DNA from: Bacteroidales bacterium
Lineage (GTDB): Bacteria; Bacteroidota; Bacteroidia; Bacteroidales; F082
Direction: 5' to 3'
NCBI GenBank assembly: GCA_017616675.1
Contig: JAFZXR010000011.1
Coordinates: 1-7,399 of the forward strand
Length of the DNA: 7,399 bases
Shown here: positions 1 to 7,360 of the stretch, in pieces
Layout: every line of letters starts with the position of its first letter
Position numbering within the stretch: the stretch's first letter is position 1
Translations under genes and position numbers: made by a program
Notes under the pieces: generated by a model
What the model saw: the letters and a program-made list of their open reading frames with translations, nothing else
Database searches by the model: none
What the model was told of the DNA's origin: nothing

Positions 1-206
1 TCGGCGCGCACCTTATCCATGGCGTCGGCTTTCACTGCCTCGAGAGTAGGCTTGTCGGACTGCACGATGATGAAGTTCTTGACGCTGCCTTGGCCTACCC
101 ATTCAGGCTTCGGGCCGCTCTTCTCGATGAGTTTGAAGCCTTTCCGCTGCGCAAAAGTGCAGAGAGGAAGCATCATCGCGAGAGCTATTATCAATATTTT
201 TCTCAT
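1..206 (-). CDS. Exported protein of unknown function, N-terminal part only
   Basis: This is the first 68 codons of a minus-strand gene that runs off the left edge of the window. The ATG at 206-204 is followed by a clear signal peptide (MRK, then a hydrophobic core, ending CTFA before Gln20), so the product is exported to the periplasm or envelope. The start of the mature part reads like the N-terminus of LPP20/FlgO-type envelope proteins: a Trp-Val pair (PEWVGQG, about residues 36-42), a beta strand (FIIVQ), then an Ala-rich helix (PTLEAVKADAMDKVRA). That likeness is my inference from pattern and too little sequence is present to name a family. It starts 10 nt after the stop of the preceding gene, so it is almost certainly the fourth gene of the operon that begins at 2832. 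No Shine-Dalgarno sequence is visible. Confidence 0.82.
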   Translation of the reverse strand, partial: MRKILIIALAMMLPLCTFAQRKGFKLIEKSGPKPEWVGQGSVKNFIIVQSDKPTLEAVKADAMDKVRA

Positions 207-216
207 AATTCAAATT

Positions 217-783
217 TTATTGTTCAAAAATCCAAGTAACATCCGGATCGCCTTTCGCCTCCTCGGTCTGCTCGGTCTGTTCAGTCTCTTCCAGAGCCTC
301 ATAATACTCTATGGCTCTCTTTTTACCAACGGTGATAAGCTTTTTCAGCTTATGGTCGCGTGCCTGGATCGACTTGATGGCTTTACCCATAGCTGCCAGG
401 TCGTTGTCGGCCATTCCGTTTTTGTTTATCGTCTCTTGCGACAGTATCACTTTGTTGACGTTATCGACGAAATACACTGCCACTTCGACTTCGGCCACAT
501 GTTGAGGCGGCACCGATGTGGTGACGTTCTTCGACAGCACTGTCACCGAGGTGACGATGAGGAAACGGCTGTCGTTGGTGGTGGCGCCGAGGCCGTTGAG
601 TGTCACAGCCTGGTTCAGGCGGTTGTAGAGCACTGTCAGGGCGTCGCCTTTGATCTCGTCGTTGGTCGGCATCAGCACGCGCACAGGGATCATCTGTTCG
701 AATGTCATCTTATCTTGAGCCTTGACCATCATGCTTGTGACGCTCAAGAGCAATGCCAGAAGCAAAAATCTGATATTTTTCAT
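217..783 (-). CDS. Small exported protein, possibly CsgG/LpoB-like fold
   Basis: The product has 188 residues. Residues 1-22 form a signal peptide (MKNIRF, hydrophobic core, VKA before Gln23). The mature part has a layout seen in CsgG/LpoB-type envelope proteins: a helix with regularly spaced Leu (LTVLYNRLNQAV, 49-60), a Gly-rich turn, then RFLIVTSVTVLSK (73-85) as a beta strand. A second strand pair at 97-115 (AEVEVAVYFVD) is followed by a long helix ending GKKRAIEYYE (153-162). The C-terminus has a short acidic repeat (EQTEQTEE, 168-175) and then DVTWIFEQ. I do not recognise a named family, and the CsgG/LpoB comparison rests on pattern, not on a search. It lies third in the four-gene operon, 18 nt after the preceding stop and 10 nt before the next start. 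The mature protein has no cysteine and no lipobox, so it is probably soluble or peripheral. Confidence 0.85.
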   Translation of the reverse strand: MKNIRFLLLALLLSVTSMMVKAQDKMTFEQMIPVRVLMPTNDEIKGDALTVLYNRLNQAVTLNGLGATTNDSRFLIVTSVTVLSKNVTTSVPPQHVAEVEVAVYFVDNVNKVILSQETINKNGMADNDLAAMGKAIKSIQARDHKLKKLITVGKKRAIEYYEALEETEQTEQTEEAKGDPDVTWIFEQ

Positions 784-785
784 TT

Positions 786-792
786 CTTTCCT
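786..792 (-). promoter_or_regulatory. Possible ribosome binding site AGGAAAG
   Basis: Reading the minus strand, AGGAAAG ends two bases before the ATG at 783. It is purine-rich and partly complementary to the 16S rRNA tail, but the spacing is short. The other genes of this operon have nothing similar ahead of their starts, in line with the weak use of Shine-Dalgarno sites in Bacteroidetes. The match may be chance. Confidence 0.3.
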
Positions 793-801
793 AATTTTTT
801 A

Positions 802-2235
802 TTATAAAACTATCCAAACCTCGCTCGGACCGCGCATATATATTGTTCCATCCACGTTGTAGGTGTCGCGCAGATAGTTTTGCAATCCTTGGAGATATTC
901 TTGAGTATCAACACGTTGGATGGCTCCGCGGCGGCCGACTTTTGTCAGCGGGATCATCACCTGGTTGAATGTGATGACGTTAGGGCTGATGTTACGCGTC
1001 GGGTTGTTGTCGACGGTGTTGTCCTGCAGCCAGTAATAGATGATGTCGCCGAGCGATGTCTGCTTGCCTTCGAAGGCGAAGGTTGTTCTCAGCAGGTCGT
1101 AGTCGGAGTTGTCGGTACGCTTGACTTTAACGGTGATCTGGCGACCGTTTTTCGACATGTTGGCGTATTCGTTTTGCAGTTTCTTGCAGAATGAATCCAT
1201 ATGGTTGAGCACTGCCTCTTCGAGCAAGGTGTTGACCGACGCTGAGTTCGACGGCTTGCCATCGCCGTGGGCGTGGGCTATCTCGCGGGCGTTGCTGCTG
1301 ACGTCGACAGCCTTCATGTTGAATGTCACGTAGCGTTGTGTGCCCACTTCCATGATTTCGAAGTCGAGGTCGACGATAAAGTCAACGTTTGCTGTACGTT
1401 TGATGCGGTCGATCGGTGACTCGGCGATGGCGCCGTCGAGACCGTAGTCCTGACCGACAAACTGATTCTCAGTCTCCTCTTGTTTGAGACTCTTCATCAG
1501 GAATTCAAGGCTCTGCACCTCGAAGCCTTTCTTGTTGAATATCTCGTTGAGTGACGATATCACAAGGCGGAGGTCGCGTGAGTCTTCACGGTTAAACACG
1601 TCGTAGTTCGACACTGTGCGCACCACGCCGTTCTCGTCTTTCCACTTCTGTACGTAGCCCATCTCGCTGCAGTAGACGTCGGATGGCACCACCATGAGGA
1701 TAGGTTTGGCATATTTGCCTGCTCCGGTGCTCTTCACATCCTGAGCATAGCCTTTGTCCTGCATATACTGCAGAAGATCGTCGTAGAGCACCTGCACGTC
1801 GACGGAGATGGTGTACATCTTGCCGTTTTTCACTGTCTTAGGCTGACCTGTCTTGTTGATGAAGCGATGATACTGTCCGCCAGGTGTCTTCTTCGTCGGG
1901 AGTGCGAGGAAATTCTCGAAGAAACCGATGTTTTCCTCTGCCACTGCGTACGACACGATTGCCGGTGTGGCTTTGGTCTGCTCCGATGCCGCGATGCCGC
2001 GGAAGAGACATGCTGCGATAGCGTCGCGTTTGGCCATCGCTATGCCTTCGGTGGCGTCTTTAGCCGTGGTAGTCACTGTGAAGACCTTAGTGCCGTCCTG
2101 GCCGACACCGATATACTGCACCTCATACTGTTGGTCGAGGACAGAACGTTTCTCGTTGTTTTTCTGGGCAAATGCTGTGTTTGTCAGAAGCAGCAAAGCG
2201 AGAAGCTGAGCTAATCTTTTTGCGAATATTTTCAT
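802..2235 (-). CDS. Exported Bacteroidetes protein of unknown function (DUF6175-like)
   Basis: The product has 477 residues with a signal peptide ending AFA before Gln24. Three parts can be seen. Residues about 36-160 hold an archaic LPP20/FlgT-like pattern: beta strands, then an Ala-rich helix with ATEGIAMAKRDAIAACLFRG (61-80). Residues about 177-365 open with KPILMVVPSD (177-186), followed by a helix that precedes a KKGFEV turn (235-240), the strand VDFIVDLDFEIM (284-295), and AVDVSSNAREIAHAHGDG (309-326). This resembles the nucleotide-free CsgG/TolB-N type alpha/beta domain. Residues about 365-477 form a further domain starting GRQITVKVKRTD. From memory, the PxxMVVPSD motif and this layout match DUF6175, a family restricted to Bacteroidetes with no assigned function; a Pfam search would settle it. 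It is the second gene of the operon, 30 nt after the first and 18 nt before the third, and is likely periplasmic or attached to the outer membrane. Confidence 0.88.
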   Translation of the reverse strand: MKIFAKRLAQLLALLLLTNTAFAQKNNEKRSVLDQQYEVQYIGVGQDGTKVFTVTTTAKDATEGIAMAKRDAIAACLFRGIAASEQTKATPAIVSYAVAEENIGFFENFLALPTKKTPGGQYHRFINKTGQPKTVKNGKMYTISVDVQVLYDDLLQYMQDKGYAQDVKSTGAGKYAKPILMVVPSDVYCSEMGYVQKWKDENGVVRTVSNYDVFNREDSRDLRLVISSLNEIFNKKGFEVQSLEFLMKSLKQEETENQFVGQDYGLDGAIAESPIDRIKRTANVDFIVDLDFEIMEVGTQRYVTFNMKAVDVSSNAREIAHAHGDGKPSNSASVNTLLEEAVLNHMDSFCKKLQNEYANMSKNGRQITVKVKRTDNSDYDLLRTTFAFEGKQTSLGDIIYYWLQDNTVDNNPTRNISPNVITFNQVMIPLTKVGRRGAIQRVDTQEYLQGLQNYLRDTYNVDGTIYMRGPSEVWIVL

Positions 2236-2265
2236 ATTTTAAACTTTTATGCTAAGAAATTGGGG

Positions 2266-2832
2266 TTATTTCCAGTCGATCGGGACGTTTTTCATTTCGA
2301 TACGGCAGTCGCCAACGCTGAATATCATTGCCGGCATCACCGTGGTCTTGTTAGGGTTGATCTTGCCCGGGACTTCAAACGAGGTCTTGAAAGGAACGTC
2401 GGTCAGGGTGCTGTAACGCTCCGGCGAATAGCCTCTAGTATGTTCTTCGCCCTCGCAGTCATATCCCACGAAGTTGCCGCCGATGTACATATCTTTGTTG
2501 GTGCTGTGGTTGGTGACTTTCAGCGTAAGGGTTATCGTTTGGTTTGCTCTGCTGCCGACCAGTGAGACGAACTCCACGTCGAGCCAGTCCTCACAAGGGT
2601 TTGAGAGTGTGACGGTTTGCTTTTTGGCCTGTGGCTTCTCGTCGGCCACCACTGTCGCTGTCTCTACCGGAGCCTCGACTTTCTTACGGCTGACTTTCTT
2701 CTCGTGTTTGCCGCTCTTGCCTGTGGCCTTGAGGGTTTTCTGCTCAAACGGATCGTTCGACTGTGCCGATGCAACTTCCGGAATCACCGAAATAAACATT
2801 AAAGCGATTAAAAAACAGATTAACTTCTTCAT
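2266..2832 (-). CDS. Exported Lys-rich protein with probable beta-sandwich domain
   Basis: The product has 188 residues. I place the start at the ATG at 2832; an in-frame TTG two codons earlier (2838) would only add two residues ahead of the typical signal-peptide start MKK. The signal peptide ends ASA before Gln24. Residues about 25-75 are a low-complexity, Lys-rich linker (QKTLKATGKSGKHEKKVSRKK and similar). From residue 80 there is a compact domain: CEDWLDVEFVSLVG, then alternating strands (QTITLTLKVTNHS, 98-110; DMYIGGNFVGYDCEGEE, 114-130), and late strands with MPAMIFSVGDCRIEM (166-180). The strand pattern, and the strand that carries TNHS as in extracellular DUF4352-type folds, suggest an immunoglobulin-like sandwich; this is inference. 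Three cysteines (80, 126, 176) remain in the mature form, so one disulfide is possible. It is the first gene of the operon, about 50 nt behind a good promoter. The function is unknown. Confidence 0.86.
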   Translation of the reverse strand: MKKLICFLIALMFISVIPEVASAQSNDPFEQKTLKATGKSGKHEKKVSRKKVEAPVETATVVADEKPQAKKQTVTLSNPCEDWLDVEFVSLVGSRANQTITLTLKVTNHSTNKDMYIGGNFVGYDCEGEEHTRGYSPERYSTLTDVPFKTSFEVPGKINPNKTTVMPAMIFSVGDCRIEMKNVPIDWK

Positions 2833-2884: not shown

Positions 2885-2915
2885 CAAATATAAATATTTT
2901 TTAAACACAAAACAA
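2885..2915 (-). promoter_or_regulatory. Bacteroidetes-type promoter of the four-gene operon
   Basis: On the minus strand the -7 element TATATTTG (2892-2885) matches TAnnTTTG exactly. TTG (2915-2913) lies 20 nt upstream in the place of the -33 element. Transcription would begin near 2880, giving a leader of roughly 48 nt before the ATG at 2832. The promoter sits only about 20 nt after the pepE stop codon, so this operon has its own start even though pepE is upstream on the same strand. I see no operator-like repeat around it. Confidence 0.7.
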
Positions 2916-2932: not shown

Positions 2933-3697
2933 CTATAGCACAAACTTCGTAATCTCCTGATTAGGCTCGAGTTCGACAGGTTCTTTTCCGTATTGGAAAA
3001 TCATCATTTTCTTACCGCCTTTGAGGAAATATTTGTCGCCGACAACCCAGATGGCAGTAGCCTCACGCAGACCGATGACTTTCATCTCCTGACGCACAGC
3101 GAGATATTCGTTGATACGGTCCTGACGTGTCTCGCCGCCGTGTTTTATCATCTTGTCGATCTCAGGATGCGGGTCGAGGTAATGAGGATTTATCTGGAAA
3201 GGTATGAGATTCAATGTGTTAAAGCTTGCAGGCTGCACTATCGGCATGTCGTTGGTGGTGCAGAGTGTAGGGCAAGCGATGTTAGAGCCGGCGCTCCATC
3301 CGATGTAAGGCGTGCCGTTGTTGGCGCATTCGGCGATAGCCTGCATCAGGCCGAACTTATGCAACTCAGCCACCAGATGGAAGGTGTTGCCACCACCGAC
3401 AACGATGCAGTCGGCAGTCTTTACGAGACCGACTTTATCTTCGACCTCGTGCACCGAGACGAACTTCTTCACGCCGAGTTTCTCGTTGAAAACCTTCTTA
3501 ACCTTCTCAGTATAAGCGTCATAGCTCTTCGGATACGGGTTGCCGCCGATGAAGACGCCCGCGAACGGCACAAAGGCCACCTTGCTGTCAGCACCGAGTT
3601 TATTCTTGTCGAAAAACTGCTCGAGCTGAGTCATCGCCCAAGCCAAGTATGTCTCACCAAAATTGGTTGAATTGCTGATTAAAAGTAAATTTCTCAT
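2933..3697 (-). CDS. pepE: Peptidase E, alpha-aspartyl dipeptidase (family S51)
   Basis: The enzyme hydrolyses dipeptides with N-terminal aspartate (Asp-X) in the cytoplasm (EC 3.4.13.21), recycling peptides that other peptidases leave. The product has 254 residues against 229 in Escherichia coli. It starts MRNLLLISNST, as in the E. coli enzyme, so the ATG at 3697 is right, and there is no signal peptide. The nucleophile Ser135 sits in GWSAGS (133-138), Asp150 in TTNDMPIV and His172 in NPHYLD. Their spacing (+15 and +37 from the Ser) equals that of Ser120/Asp135/His157 in the Salmonella and E. coli enzymes. GGGNTFHL (101-108) and GETRQDRI (188-195) are also conserved. The extra length is mostly an insertion near residues 48-58 (FIGGNPYPKSY), where E. 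coli has a shorter loop, plus a longer C-terminal tail. It stands alone, divergent from the GH97 gene and upstream of the four-gene operon on the same strand. Confidence 0.96.
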   Translation of the reverse strand: MRNLLLISNSTNFGETYLAWAMTQLEQFFDKNKLGADSKVAFVPFAGVFIGGNPYPKSYDAYTEKVKKVFNEKLGVKKFVSVHEVEDKVGLVKTADCIVVGGGNTFHLVAELHKFGLMQAIAECANNGTPYIGWSAGSNIACPTLCTTNDMPIVQPASFNTLNLIPFQINPHYLDPHPEIDKMIKHGGETRQDRINEYLAVRQEMKVIGLREATAIWVVGDKYFLKGGKKMMIFQYGKEPVELEPNQEITKFVL

Positions 3698-3809: not shown

Positions 3810-5792
3810 ATGAAGAAGATTGTTGTTTTATTAGCGATAATTCTTGGAATTGGTAATATTTACGGGCATAATTACGAATTGAAATCGCCTGATGGAAAGA
3901 TTGCGGTGAAGGTGAATGTCGGCGATGAGGTGAAGTATTCGGTAATGCACGAAAACACTGTGGTTATCAACGATTCGCCTATTTCGATGGAGCTGGGCGA
4001 CGGGAAGGTATTGGGAGCCGGAAAAGTGGTGAAAGTGATAAATAAAACTGTTGATGAGGTCTTGAATGCCGATTTTTATAAGAAAAAAGAAGTCAAAAAT
4101 CATTATAACGAATTGATTATCAACTTTAAAGGTAATTACAAACTAACTTTCAGGGCCTTCGACGACGGCGTGGCGTATAGGTTTTCGACCAGCTTTAAAA
4201 AGCCGATTATTGTTAAGAAAGAAAATGTAAATTATTGTTTCGACGACGATTACGTAGCGTATATTCCGTATGTGAACGCCCGCAAAGGCGACGGCGACTT
4301 CCTCGAGCAGCAGTTTTTCACTTCTTTCGAAAGCCAATACACCATCGACTCGATTTCTAAGATGGATAAGGAGCGCATCGCCTTCACACCTTTATTAATA
4401 TGCCTCAAAGACGGCAAAAAAGTTGTTATCGTGGAGTCGGATCTGGAAGATTTTCCTGGCACTTTCTTCAGAAAAGGCGAAGGCAACAGTCTTGAAGCGG
4501 TGCAGTCGACATATCCGAAAACAGAGATTCAAGGCGGTCACAACATGCTGCAGATGGTGGTGAAAGAAAGAGAGGCATTCGTCGCGAAGGTCAATGGGAC
4601 AAGGGATTTCCCGTGGCGAGCGATGGTGATTTCAAGCGACGACGCCGAGCTGATGAACAGCGACATGGTTTACAAGCTCGCATCGCCTTCGAGGGTGAAG
4701 GATGTGAGCTGGATCAAGCCCGGAAAGGTGGCTTGGGACTGGTGGAACAACTGGAACATCTGGGGCGTCGATTTTAAGGCAGGCATCAACAACGACACAT
4801 ATAAATATTATATCGATTTTGCGTCGAAAAACGGCATAGAATATGTGATTTTGGACGAAGGATGGGCGGTGAATAAGCAAGCCGACCTGTTTCAAGTGGT
4901 GCCGGAAATCGATTTGGAGGAACTCGTGGACTACGCCAATGAAAGAAATGTCGGATTGGTGCTTTGGGTAGGATATTATGCCATCGACAGAGACATGGAG
5001 CATGTGTGCAAGCACTACAGCGAGATGGGAATCAAGGGATTTAAGGTCGACTTTATGGACCGCGACGACCAGAAGGTTGTCGACTTCTACTACCGCATGG
5101 CGGCGATGGCAGCGAAATATCATTTGTTCGTTGATTTTCATGGAGCTTACAAGCCTACGGGACTGAGCCGCACCTACCCTAACGTGCTGAATTTCGAGGG
5201 AGTTTACGGTCTGGAGCAGTCGAAATGGGACGACGAGCTCAACCAGGTGAACTACGAATGCATGATTCCGTACATCAGGCAGGTGGCTGGCAACCTCGAC
5301 TACACTCAGGGCGCCATGGACAACGCCACAAAACATCATTTCCGCGCCATCTACACCAACCCGATGAGCCAAGGCACACGATGCAGGCAACTCGCTGAGT
5401 ATGTTATATTTGAGTCGCCGTTCAACATGCTCTGCGACAGTCCGACGAAGTATATGCAGAACCAGGAATGCGTCGATTTCATCGCCAGCGTGCCTACGGT
5501 GTGGGACGAGACGGTGGCTCTCGACGGCAAACTCGGCGAATATGCAGTAGTTGCGAGGAGAAAGGGCAACACGTGGTATATCGGAGCGATAACGAATTGG
5601 GAACCACGGATGATTGAGATTGATTTCAGTAAACTCGGATTGAAACACCCCGATGTTAAGTATTTTGTCGATGGAATGAATGCAAACAGAAACGCAAAAG
5701 ATTATATTTACGACAGCGTTGAAAAGATTGAAGGTAATTTTGTGATTGAGATGGCTAGTGGCGGTGGAGCCGTGATAATAGTTAATAAGTGA
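3810..5792 (+). CDS. GH97 glycoside hydrolase, retaining alpha-galactosidase type
   Basis: The predicted enzyme has 660 residues, the usual length for this family, and a signal peptide (MKK, hydrophobic core, ending NIYG before His20), so it acts in the periplasm or at the outer membrane. Three domains are visible: an N-terminal beta-sandwich (about 22-290), a (beta/alpha)8 barrel from WIKPGKVAWDWWN (301-313) to about 560, and a C-terminal beta domain (about 565-660). Known GH97 enzymes split into inverting alpha-glucosidases such as SusB, with glutamates as base, and retaining alpha-galactosidases such as BT1871 of Bacteroides thetaiotaomicron, with nucleophile Asp415 and acid/base Glu470. 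Here Asp414 lies in FKVDFMDRDD and Glu469 in YGLEQ, the same 55-residue spacing, which places it in the retaining branch. Alpha-galactosidase (EC 3.2.1.22) is most likely; a beta-L-arabinopyranosidase activity, known from a close relative, is possible. No SusC, SusD or other glycan gene is adjacent. Its 3' end overlaps convergent truA by 11 bp. Confidence 0.93.
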   Translation: MKKIVVLLAIILGIGNIYGHNYELKSPDGKIAVKVNVGDEVKYSVMHENTVVINDSPISMELGDGKVLGAGKVVKVINKTVDEVLNADFYKKKEVKNHYNELIINFKGNYKLTFRAFDDGVAYRFSTSFKKPIIVKKENVNYCFDDDYVAYIPYVNARKGDGDFLEQQFFTSFESQYTIDSISKMDKERIAFTPLLICLKDGKKVVIVESDLEDFPGTFFRKGEGNSLEAVQSTYPKTEIQGGHNMLQMVVKEREAFVAKVNGTRDFPWRAMVISSDDAELMNSDMVYKLASPSRVKDVSWIKPGKVAWDWWNNWNIWGVDFKAGINNDTYKYYIDFASKNGIEYVILDEGWAVNKQADLFQVVPEIDLEELVDYANERNVGLVLWVGYYAIDRDMEHVCKHYSEMGIKGFKVDFMDRDDQKVVDFYYRMAAMAAKYHLFVDFHGAYKPTGLSRTYPNVLNFEGVYGLEQSKWDDELNQVNYECMIPYIRQVAGNLDYTQGAMDNATKHHFRAIYTNPMSQGTRCRQLAEYVIFESPFNMLCDSPTKYMQNQECVDFIASVPTVWDETVALDGKLGEYAVVARRKGNTWYIGAITNWEPRMIEIDFSKLGLKHPDVKYFVDGMNANRNAKDYIYDSVEKIEGNFVIEMASGGGAVIIVNK

Positions 5793-6510
5793 CTTCTTCG
5801 AGGAATAGGGCGTGCGCGGGCATTGAGGTGCCGGCGGAGCAGCGGTTTTTCTGTTCGATGACGGCGCGGAATTCTTCCAATGTCATCTTCCCCTTCCCCA
5901 CTTCGAGCAAGGTGCCGACGATGGCGCGGACCATATTTCTCAAAAAACGGTCGGCTTTGATGCGGAACACAAGTAAGTCGTTCTGTTCGAACCAGCGGGC
6001 TTCCATTATCCGGCAGTTGTTCGTCTTGACCTGTGTGTGAAGCTTCGAGAAGCTTGTAAAGTCTTGATATTCAAAGAGAATCTTCGCCGCTTCGTTCATC
6101 TTCGCCACATCAAGCGGGCCATATATATATAAGGAGTCGTCGGTGTGGAAAGGGTTCTTGGTGCGGGTAACGTAATAATGATATGTGCGCGACTTCGCGT
6201 CGAAGCGGGCGTGAAAGTACGGGTCGACCTGCCAGCAGCGGAACACCACGATGTCGTCGGGCAAGAACATATTCAACTGATTTACAAATTCTTCAAGATT
6301 TTCTATCGGTTCGCTCTCGAAATGCGCATAGAAATTTCTTGCGTTGACGCCTGTGTCGGTACGTCCGCATCCGGTGATGGATATGTCCTGTTTCAGCTTC
6401 AGGCCGATACACTTCTCGAGGGTCTCCTGCACGGTGACATCGCCCGGTTGGATTTGCCAGCCGTGATAAGCTTTCCCGTTATACGCCAGATGTAAGAAAT
6501 ACCTGTTCAT
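5782..6510 (-). CDS. truA: tRNA pseudouridine(38-40) synthase TruA
   Basis: TruA converts uridines 38-40 of the anticodon arm of many tRNAs to pseudouridine in the cytoplasm. I choose the ATG at 6510: the protein then starts MNRYFLHLAYNGKAYHGWQ, the normal TruA start. Upstream in-frame codons would add 13 hydrophobic residues from a TTG and are not expected. The length is 242 residues against 270 in E. coli. The catalytic Asp52 lies in GCGRTDTGVNA (47-57), equivalent to Asp60 of E. coli. The RNA-binding motifs FHARFDAKSRTYHYY and RFLRNMVRAIVG are intact. Where most TruA have GVHA after the catalytic motif, this one has GVNA. The gene converges on the GH97 gene, and the two stop codons lie within an 11-bp overlap with no terminator between them. 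Confidence 0.96.
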   Translation of the reverse strand: MNRYFLHLAYNGKAYHGWQIQPGDVTVQETLEKCIGLKLKQDISITGCGRTDTGVNARNFYAHFESEPIENLEEFVNQLNMFLPDDIVVFRCWQVDPYFHARFDAKSRTYHYYVTRTKNPFHTDDSLYIYGPLDVAKMNEAAKILFEYQDFTSFSKLHTQVKTNNCRIMEARWFEQNDLLVFRIKADRFLRNMVRAIVGTLLEVGKGKMTLEEFRAVIEQKNRCSAGTSMPAHALFLEEVTY

Positions 6511-6527
6511 GATGATTTTTTGCACTG

Positions 6528-6535
6528 CAAAATTA
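6528..6535 (-). promoter_or_regulatory. Possible truA promoter, -7 element
   Basis: TAATTTTG on the minus strand (6535-6528) matches TAnnTTTG and lies 17 nt before the truA ATG at 6510, giving a leader of only about 10-12 nt. A TTTG further upstream (6550-6547) is only 11 nt away, too close for a -33 element, so the match is partial. Confidence 0.45.
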
Positions 6536-6554
6536 AAAAAAATGAACAAAAAAC

Positions 6555-6616: not shown

Positions 6617-7360
6617 ATGCCAATATACATGCTAAAAGACGAGGTATATGATTTTCCGCCTGTCGGTCAGTCGACAAAGGACGGATTACTTGCGATTGGC
6701 GGAGATTTGTCGCCCGAGAGGTTGCTCGTCGCCTATTCATCGGGGATATTTCCATGGTATTCGGAAGGAGAGCCTATCTTATGGTGGTCGCTCGACCCCA
6801 GGATGGTGCTTAAGCCGACCGATCTGAAGGTAACGAAATCGTTGTGGAAGACCATCGAATCGAACAAATATTCTTGTTCGTTTGACGCTGATTTTGAGGG
6901 AGTTATACGTGCCTGTGCCACTGTGCCGCGCATCGACGACGTGACCGAGGAGGAAGACGACACCGACGAGCCGAGTCCGTGGATCAGCGAGGACATGATA
7001 GTGGCTTATTGCGAGCTGCACGACATGGGATTTGCCCATTCCGTTGAGGTTTACCAGGACAACGAGCTGGTTGGCGGCTTATATGGCGTCGCCATCGGCA
7101 AGGTGTTCTGCGCCGAGTCGATGTTCCACACCAAGACCGACGCCTCGAAGGTGGCGCTGTATAACCTATGTCAGTTTTTGATCAGAAACGGATTCGAACT
7201 CATTGACTCTCAACAGGAAACGGGGCACATGAAGCGCATGGGAGCCGCTCCTATCCCAAGAAAAGAATTCATGAAACTGCTGAAAGGACTGGTGAAACAG
7301 CAAAGTCTCGTCGGCAACTGGGGCGACGGAACAGCGGAGCTGATGCAGTTGACAATTTAA
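6617..7360 (+). CDS. aat: Leucyl/phenylalanyl-tRNA-protein transferase
   Basis: Aat moves leucine or phenylalanine from charged tRNA to proteins that begin with Arg or Lys, marking them for ClpS/ClpAP degradation under the bacterial N-end rule; it acts in the cytoplasm. The product has 247 residues. The N-terminal motif DGLLAIGGDLSPERLL (22-37) followed by AYSSGIFPWYSEGEPILWW (39-57) is diagnostic, and the ATG at 6617 gives the usual short lead to it. LVGGLYGVAIGKVFCAESMF (151-170) and LIDSQQ (195-200) complete the catalytic domain. Asp197 and Gln199 match the catalytic Asp186 and Gln188 of the E. coli enzyme. Between CATVPR and PWISEDM there is an acidic loop (IDDVTEEEDDTDEPS, 106-120), roughly a dozen residues longer than the corresponding E. 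coli stretch. The gene has its own promoter, divergent from truA. ClpS and ClpA are not in view. Confidence 0.95.
   Translation: MPIYMLKDEVYDFPPVGQSTKDGLLAIGGDLSPERLLVAYSSGIFPWYSEGEPILWWSLDPRMVLKPTDLKVTKSLWKTIESNKYSCSFDADFEGVIRACATVPRIDDVTEEEDDTDEPSPWISEDMIVAYCELHDMGFAHSVEVYQDNELVGGLYGVAIGKVFCAESMFHTKTDASKVALYNLCQFLIRNGFELIDSQQETGHMKRMGAAPIPRKEFMKLLKGLVKQQSLVGNWGDGTAELMQLTI

Follow-up and report, generated by a model that had tools for sequence, protein, structure and literature searches.

We analyzed a stretch of 7,399 nucleotides (nt) of contig JAFZXR010000011.1 from a Bacteroidales genome (assembly GCA_017616675.1), referred to below as the window. At its left end, the window carries a row of four minus-strand genes for exported proteins, one of them with the domain DUF6175; they open an operon of at least five genes. 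The genes (protein lengths in amino acids, aa) and the promoter-like site ahead of them are as follows.

2915..2885 (2885..2915), minus strand: promoter-like site TTG-N20-TATATTTG, pattern match of the Bacteroidota -33/-7 type
2266..2832, minus strand: gene 1 (family F2), 188 aa; signal peptide by eye, Lys-rich linker, C-terminal probable beta-sandwich
802..2235, minus strand: gene 2, 477 aa; N-part (about 25-170) and DUF6175 (176-477)
217..783, minus strand: gene 3 (family F6), 188 aa; exported, predicted TolB_N/CsgG/PelC/FlgT-type fold
206..<3 (3..206), minus strand: gene 4, first 68 aa only; signal peptide, start of an LPP20-like domain

The gaps between the genes were 30, 18, and 10 nt. 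All four N-termini (4/4) looked like signal peptides by eye, with a basic start, a hydrophobic run, and an A-x-A-like site before Q. The site TTG-N20-TATATTTG follows the Bacteroidota promoter consensus, and the minus strand of the window held no second match; about 0.03 matches were expected in that intergenic stretch by first-order Markov simulation. Two matches were found on the plus strand, each ahead of other genes. Of the 18 relatives (described below) examined for the pattern, 14 had it in the interval separating the S51 peptidase gene from the cluster's first gene; it was found in none of L016-L019. Only gene 2 exceeded a Pfam cut-off, and its family is one of unknown function. The four-gene row of exported proteins is confirmed as real, and the original prediction, made from the same DNA, was correct in its tight spacing, single promoter, four signal peptides, and lack of a family of known function. 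It was right in outline, but it missed that the window end cuts the operon inside gene 4, which has a full length of 308-315 aa in relatives.

Genome contigs scanned for the gene 2 family yielded 20 loci, all titled Bacteroidales or Bacteroidia bacteria, with L017 titled Candidatus Limimorpha caballi. Nineteen of these loci (L001-L019) carried the main cluster, and the order gene 2-gene 3-gene 4 was kept in all 19 close relatives. Gene 5, encoding a protein of 177-201 aa, followed gene 4 directly in 18/19 relatives and was missing in L003. A second, paralogous cassette of gene 2 and gene 1 was present upstream in 10/19 relatives. The remaining locus, L020, was separate and held one paralogue of gene 2 together with two relatives of gene 1.

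The linkage was also analyzed in an even draw of 393 genomes from the order of G001. DUF6175 was found in 91 genomes, in 90 of them over the cut-off (controls 0/14), and the gene 3 profile matched 87. Both occurred together in 84 genomes (Fisher 4.5e-73, with draw genomes related to each other and many fragmented, and with profiles built from DUF6175 neighbors, some rows coming from genomes of the same draw). Joint presence in other genomes had been proposed as a check on the single system, and it was borne out: in 84/84 co-occurring genomes, the two genes were adjacent, within 600 nt on one contig. DUF6175 stood alone in 7 genomes and the gene 3 match in 3, two of them weak. The gene 4 profile matched 60 genomes (E<=1e-3); six weak matches (1e-5 to 4e-4) were dropped, and in 49 of the 54 genomes counted the family occurred with DUF6175 (Fisher 2.7e-31), on the same contig in 35 and within 3 kilobases in 32. 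These counts indicate that genes 2 and 3 form the core, accompanied by gene 4 in about half of the cases. In a phylum draw of 395 genomes, DUF6175 matches were found in 19. The gene set is very probably one functional unit.

Separate small envelope proteins held together by descent, with no shared complex, are an improbable explanation of this linkage. Close synteny was indeed found largely among related rumen and gut genomes, in which the S51 peptidase neighbor was also kept (18/19), as was a gene further downstream that clusters with Ca-type P-ATPases (18/19; L014 ends before that position). However, the cluster persists outside the lineage and these neighbors do not: in 92 loci, some of them short loci or CsgG loci, S51 was never matched and the ATPase was matched once (E<=1e-10). 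Gene fusions and joint duplication are also unexpected under this explanation. The upstream S51 peptidase and the genes further downstream, which in L001 and L016 encode a Ca-type P-ATPase, AroQ, or S9 peptidase, look like housekeeping neighbors. The P-type ATPase and the S51 peptidase were set aside as parts of the system because they are not kept outside the lineage; AroQ was set aside as well, the outside-lineage evidence covering the ATPase and S51 only.

The families were also found joined to each other. Genes 3 and 1 shared one open reading frame (ORF) in L077 (E 3e-7) and L068 (1e-4), the only two matched by the gene 1 profile among 93 ORFs with a gene 3 domain. L070 looked like such a fusion by eye, but the profile gave no support, and it was rejected. 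Long homologues of gene 3 (about 320 aa), with weak TPR-type Pfam matches in their C-termini, were likewise rejected as fusions with gene 1, since hhalign detected no gene 1 domain in the C-terminus.

Seven distant loci were read, taken from the 10 weak matches of the phylum draw with open frames of 414-485 aa. In all seven, a gene 2 homologue was followed on the same strand by a protein of 443-465 aa, LPP20/gene 5-like at its N-terminus (5e-7 to 5e-14; L154, 8e-7) and gene 3-like at its C-terminus (3e-7 to 6e-12). The gap between the two genes was <=44 nt in 6/7 loci and about 520 nt in L155; the N-part of gene 2 was detected in 6/7. A database search with the joined protein of L152 returned 8 proteins, 7 of them with precomputed Pfam LPP20. 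Among the matches, P0241 comes from [Chlorobium] sp. 445 and is annotated as hypothetical, whereas P0245 comes from a Chloroherpetonaceae bacterium and is named as an LPP20 family lipoprotein. Both organisms belong to the Chlorobiota, and at least some of the loci with the fusion are from this phylum. The same modules occurred as separate ORFs in L104, where gene 5, the upstream protein described below, the two parts of a split gene 2, and then genes 3, 4, and 1 were neighbors, gene 1 standing alone (hhalign 99.3%). The eighth match of the L152 search, P0248 (632 aa), had an LPP20-like N-terminus, over which it aligned to the query, followed by LpoB/CsgG domains, a further way of combining LPP20-like and LpoB/CsgG modules.

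Gene 1 is the loosest member of the cluster. Its family stood directly before gene 2 in 15/19 relatives and was missing in L016-L019. Relatives of gene 1 were found in 9/9 genomes of the window lineage searched; in G007 and G008 they were located on contigs other than that of the DUF6175 gene. This looser linkage was overlooked when the four genes were described as one unit. No Pfam family exceeded the cut-off for gene 1, and weak matches to DUF5643 (Pfam) and SAR2788 (NCBIfam) were both below it. The C-terminal part is probably a beta-sandwich, as predicted from the sequence.

Residues 176-477 of gene 2 matched DUF6175 (PF19672) at 2e-69 with 234.4 bits against a cut-off of 23, in agreement with the label proposed for it originally. 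However, gene 2 is not one protein throughout, a point the original prediction overlooked: in many other Bacteroidales it corresponds to two neighboring genes, encoding an N-part-like protein of ~170 aa and a DUF6175 protein of ~318 aa. In a structural model of gene 2, which was weak, the first part of DUF6175, in the middle of the protein, was TolB_N/CsgG/PelC-like; gene 2 perhaps carries here another copy of the fold predicted for gene 3. Pfam matches to CsgG, LpoB, FlgT_N, FlgT_M, or FlgT_C were found in none of 20 gene 2 members, and searches of solved-structure profiles with gene 2 and with its N-part gave nothing usable. One DUF6175 protein of 473 aa (P0089) looked like a chimera of two tandem paralogue groups, its N-half from one and its C-half from the other, either by gene conversion or as an assembly artefact.

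Gene 3 is predicted from its model to have a fold of the TolB_N/CsgG/PelC/FlgT-middle type. No Pfam family exceeded the cut-off, CsgG and LpoB were not among the families listed (25 of 33) for 21 gene 3 members, and the search of solved-structure profiles gave nothing usable. PelC was among the top structural matches of both the gene 2 and the gene 3 models. The CsgG/LpoB label given to gene 3 originally is thus apt at the level of fold and not as Pfam membership; in the window, neither CsgG (PF03783) nor LpoB (PF13036) matched any of genes 1-4.

Genes 4 and 5 are, judging by their sequences, LPP20 (SHS2)-like. The gene 5 profile matched the structure of Helicobacter pylori LPP20 (5ok8) with an E of 2e-5, the next row having 0.025, and gene 4 shares the motif P-x-W-V with 5ok8. 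The two families cluster together by BLAST; their hhalign score of 99.9% is inflated because the iterated profiles had mixed. A lipobox was recognized by eye in the gene 5 members read, whereas gene 4 had none by eye and differs in this from the LPP20 lipoproteins. The original LPP20 label of gene 4 stands at the fold level, but Pfam membership does not follow. Pfam LPP20 (PF02169) did not match the 68-aa fragment of gene 4 in the window, nor genes 4 and 5 of L001 at E<=1. In the wider families it was listed for 7/15 gene 5 members (best 4.1e-5) and 4/19 gene 4 members (best 0.018), one of these matches scoring 21.3 bits against a cut-off of 25.9. In L065 and L069, the gene that immediately follows DUF6175 did pass the LPP20 cut-off. 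In L075, the gene at 8003-10105 directly after the DUF6175 gene encoded an LPP20-like N-terminus (0.0039, below the cut-off) and a Laminin_G_3 domain (3.8e-15), a lectin-like domain hinting at glycan or surface binding.

A further protein was encoded directly upstream of the cluster in some other Bacteroidales. In the 10 loci scanned, CsgG and LpoB were both over the cut-off in 3, a weak LpoB match was found in three, and four had no match; FlgT domains gave only weak matches in this upstream gene, to FlgT_M/FlgT_C. The solved-structure profile search gave nothing usable for this protein. CsgG occurred in 23/149 genomes of the order, next to DUF6175 in 2 of those (G128 and G117). LpoB gave the best curated match for the upstream genes of L083 (2.1e-8) and L079 (4.1e-6) and appeared among the Foldseek matches of the gene 2 model (E 0.012). 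These matches would suit a role in regulating peptidoglycan synthesis, with LpoB-like proteins extending from the outer membrane as far as the penicillin-binding proteins. We consider such a role rather improbable, since the proteins of the window and the 20 gene 2 members had no LpoB match and the same held for the families listed for gene 3. Moreover, the LPP20-like and DUF6175 parts have no known counterpart in Lpo pathways.

An export machine was considered as well, in which the TolB_N/CsgG/PelC-like proteins would form the periplasmic gate of a pore secreting polysaccharide or protein, as in PelBC or CsgG. The structural matches to PelC and CsgG are consistent with it, and the upstream protein may end in a beta-barrel: of 16 longer upstream ORFs (417-615 aa, chosen by eye), 10 had a small beta-barrel-like C-terminal part, and OMP_b-brl matched 2 of the 16 at 0.0048. 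Twelve copies of PelC form a ring on the barrel of PelB, which combines this barrel with TPRs (PMC12141448), an architectural parallel to which the weak TPR-like C-termini of the long gene 3 homologues may be added. Export nevertheless appears unlikely. The possible barrel is small, at about 170 aa, and 6/16 upstream proteins lack it; no barrel of PelB size was found, and the cluster also differs from PelC/PelB in its LPP20-like partners. In the window lineage, a relative of the upstream protein was present in 9/9 genomes, unlinked to the cluster and with no barrel visible. No recurring gene for polysaccharide synthesis or for a substrate was noticed in the loci read, in which no systematic search was made.

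Two further results count against export and led to the rejection of curli secretion. The pore of CsgG is built by long transmembrane hairpins, and in the models of genes 2 (weak, as noted) and 3 the loops of the central strands have 2-7 residues; therefore, hairpins of the CsgG type are absent from both models in spite of the similar core fold and the CsgG-family genes next to some clusters. CsgF and curlin repeats were each found in 0/12 genomes (11 with DUF6175 and G104 without it), the Escherichia coli control being positive.

The two fold groups recur in flagellar rings. An SHS2-like fold is common to FlgP, Lpp20, and FlgT, and within the FlgP family the formation of rings correlates with an insertion that follows the SHS2 helix (PMC12222027). 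Membership in a flagellum was rejected: FlgI, the sole flagellar gene searched, was found in 0/149 genomes of the order and in 3/14 controls. By this test the cluster differs from the FlgP/FlgT (and FlgO) rings of Vibrio and Campylobacterota in having no flagella; further differences are the absence of a FlgT Pfam match in gene 2 and the extra DUF6175 C-terminal domain and gene 1.

With about even confidence, we favor the reading that the cluster encodes a non-flagellar envelope complex in its Bacteroidales form, probably a ring or scaffold at the outer membrane. Taken together, the results point to one envelope complex built from two fold groups, which form outer-membrane rings elsewhere. The original prediction had suggested a shared complex and had left room for structures matching unrelated families; the models and profiles instead fall in envelope fold groups. 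Its shared complex is partly supported by the co-occurrence, fusions, and fold class computed here, while the physical complex and its role are what we infer from them. That the products form one physical complex is fairly likely; that this complex is a ring is a more tentative proposal, put at slightly under an even chance. The ring or scaffold would probably be situated on the inner face of the outer membrane. One result weighs against LPP20 kinship: the gene 4 profile retrieved no LPP20 and nothing usable from the solved structures.

In the envelope complex that we favor, the lipoprotein encoded by gene 5 would tether the set to the outer membrane at its inner leaflet. The LPP20-like and TolB_N-like subunits would oligomerize laterally, in the manner of FlgP/FlgT and PelC, to give the ring or scaffold, and gene 1 would contribute a beta-sandwich module. 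The membrane part in some other Bacteroidales may be the upstream CsgG/LpoB-like protein or the longer protein with a possible beta-barrel. The likeliest role would be that of a load-bearing or sealing ring, bracing the outer membrane or holding another machine there; we prefer it to an exporter because of the absence of FlgI from the 149 genomes and of curli parts from the 12.

We failed to find a description of the cluster in the open-access literature, judged from titles and the starts of abstracts, or any open-access paper for the word DUF6175. The folds are known; for their combination, its spread, and its independence of flagella and curli, the literature searched yielded no description. 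For DUF6175 (91/393 genomes) and its nameless partners (gene 3 family, 87; gene 4 family, 60), the analysis supplies a list of parts and a hypothesis to work with. A ring, if confirmed, would extend outer-membrane rings beyond flagella and known exporters, and the origin of the FlgP/FlgT rings would become testable. A broader and doubtful proposal is that the cluster, found across Bacteroidota and at least some Chlorobiota, is related to the FlgO/FlgP/FlgT outer-membrane rings but stands alone and serves no flagellum, and that rings of LPP20 and TolB_N were a general envelope device later recruited for flagellar, perhaps also export, rings.

The rest of the window is occupied by ordinary genes.

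2933-3697: S51 peptidase
3810-5792: GH97 glycosidase
5782-6549: TruA-type tRNA pseudouridine synthase
6617-7360: leucyl/phenylalanyl-tRNA-protein transferase

Several further observations were made in the lineage of the window. A protein of 388-420 aa (F17) was encoded between gene 5 and the Ca-ATPase gene in seven loci (L007, L010, and L013-L017), cut at the locus end in L014; it had LPP20-like stretches by eye and no Pfam family in the one member scanned. In the nearest relative, a cluster of CsgG, DUF4810, and GNA1162 lipoprotein genes was located elsewhere in the genome (L134, G001:C10). The CsgG/FlgT-like partner of the lineage has 553-573 aa with a repeated C-terminal module (L145-L149, in G001, G004, G007, G009, and G005, respectively). 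In 5/5 loci read, its gene was immediately preceded by ssb, a gldE-like gene, and gldD, GldD being assigned by Pfam in L147 and the other neighbors by eye.

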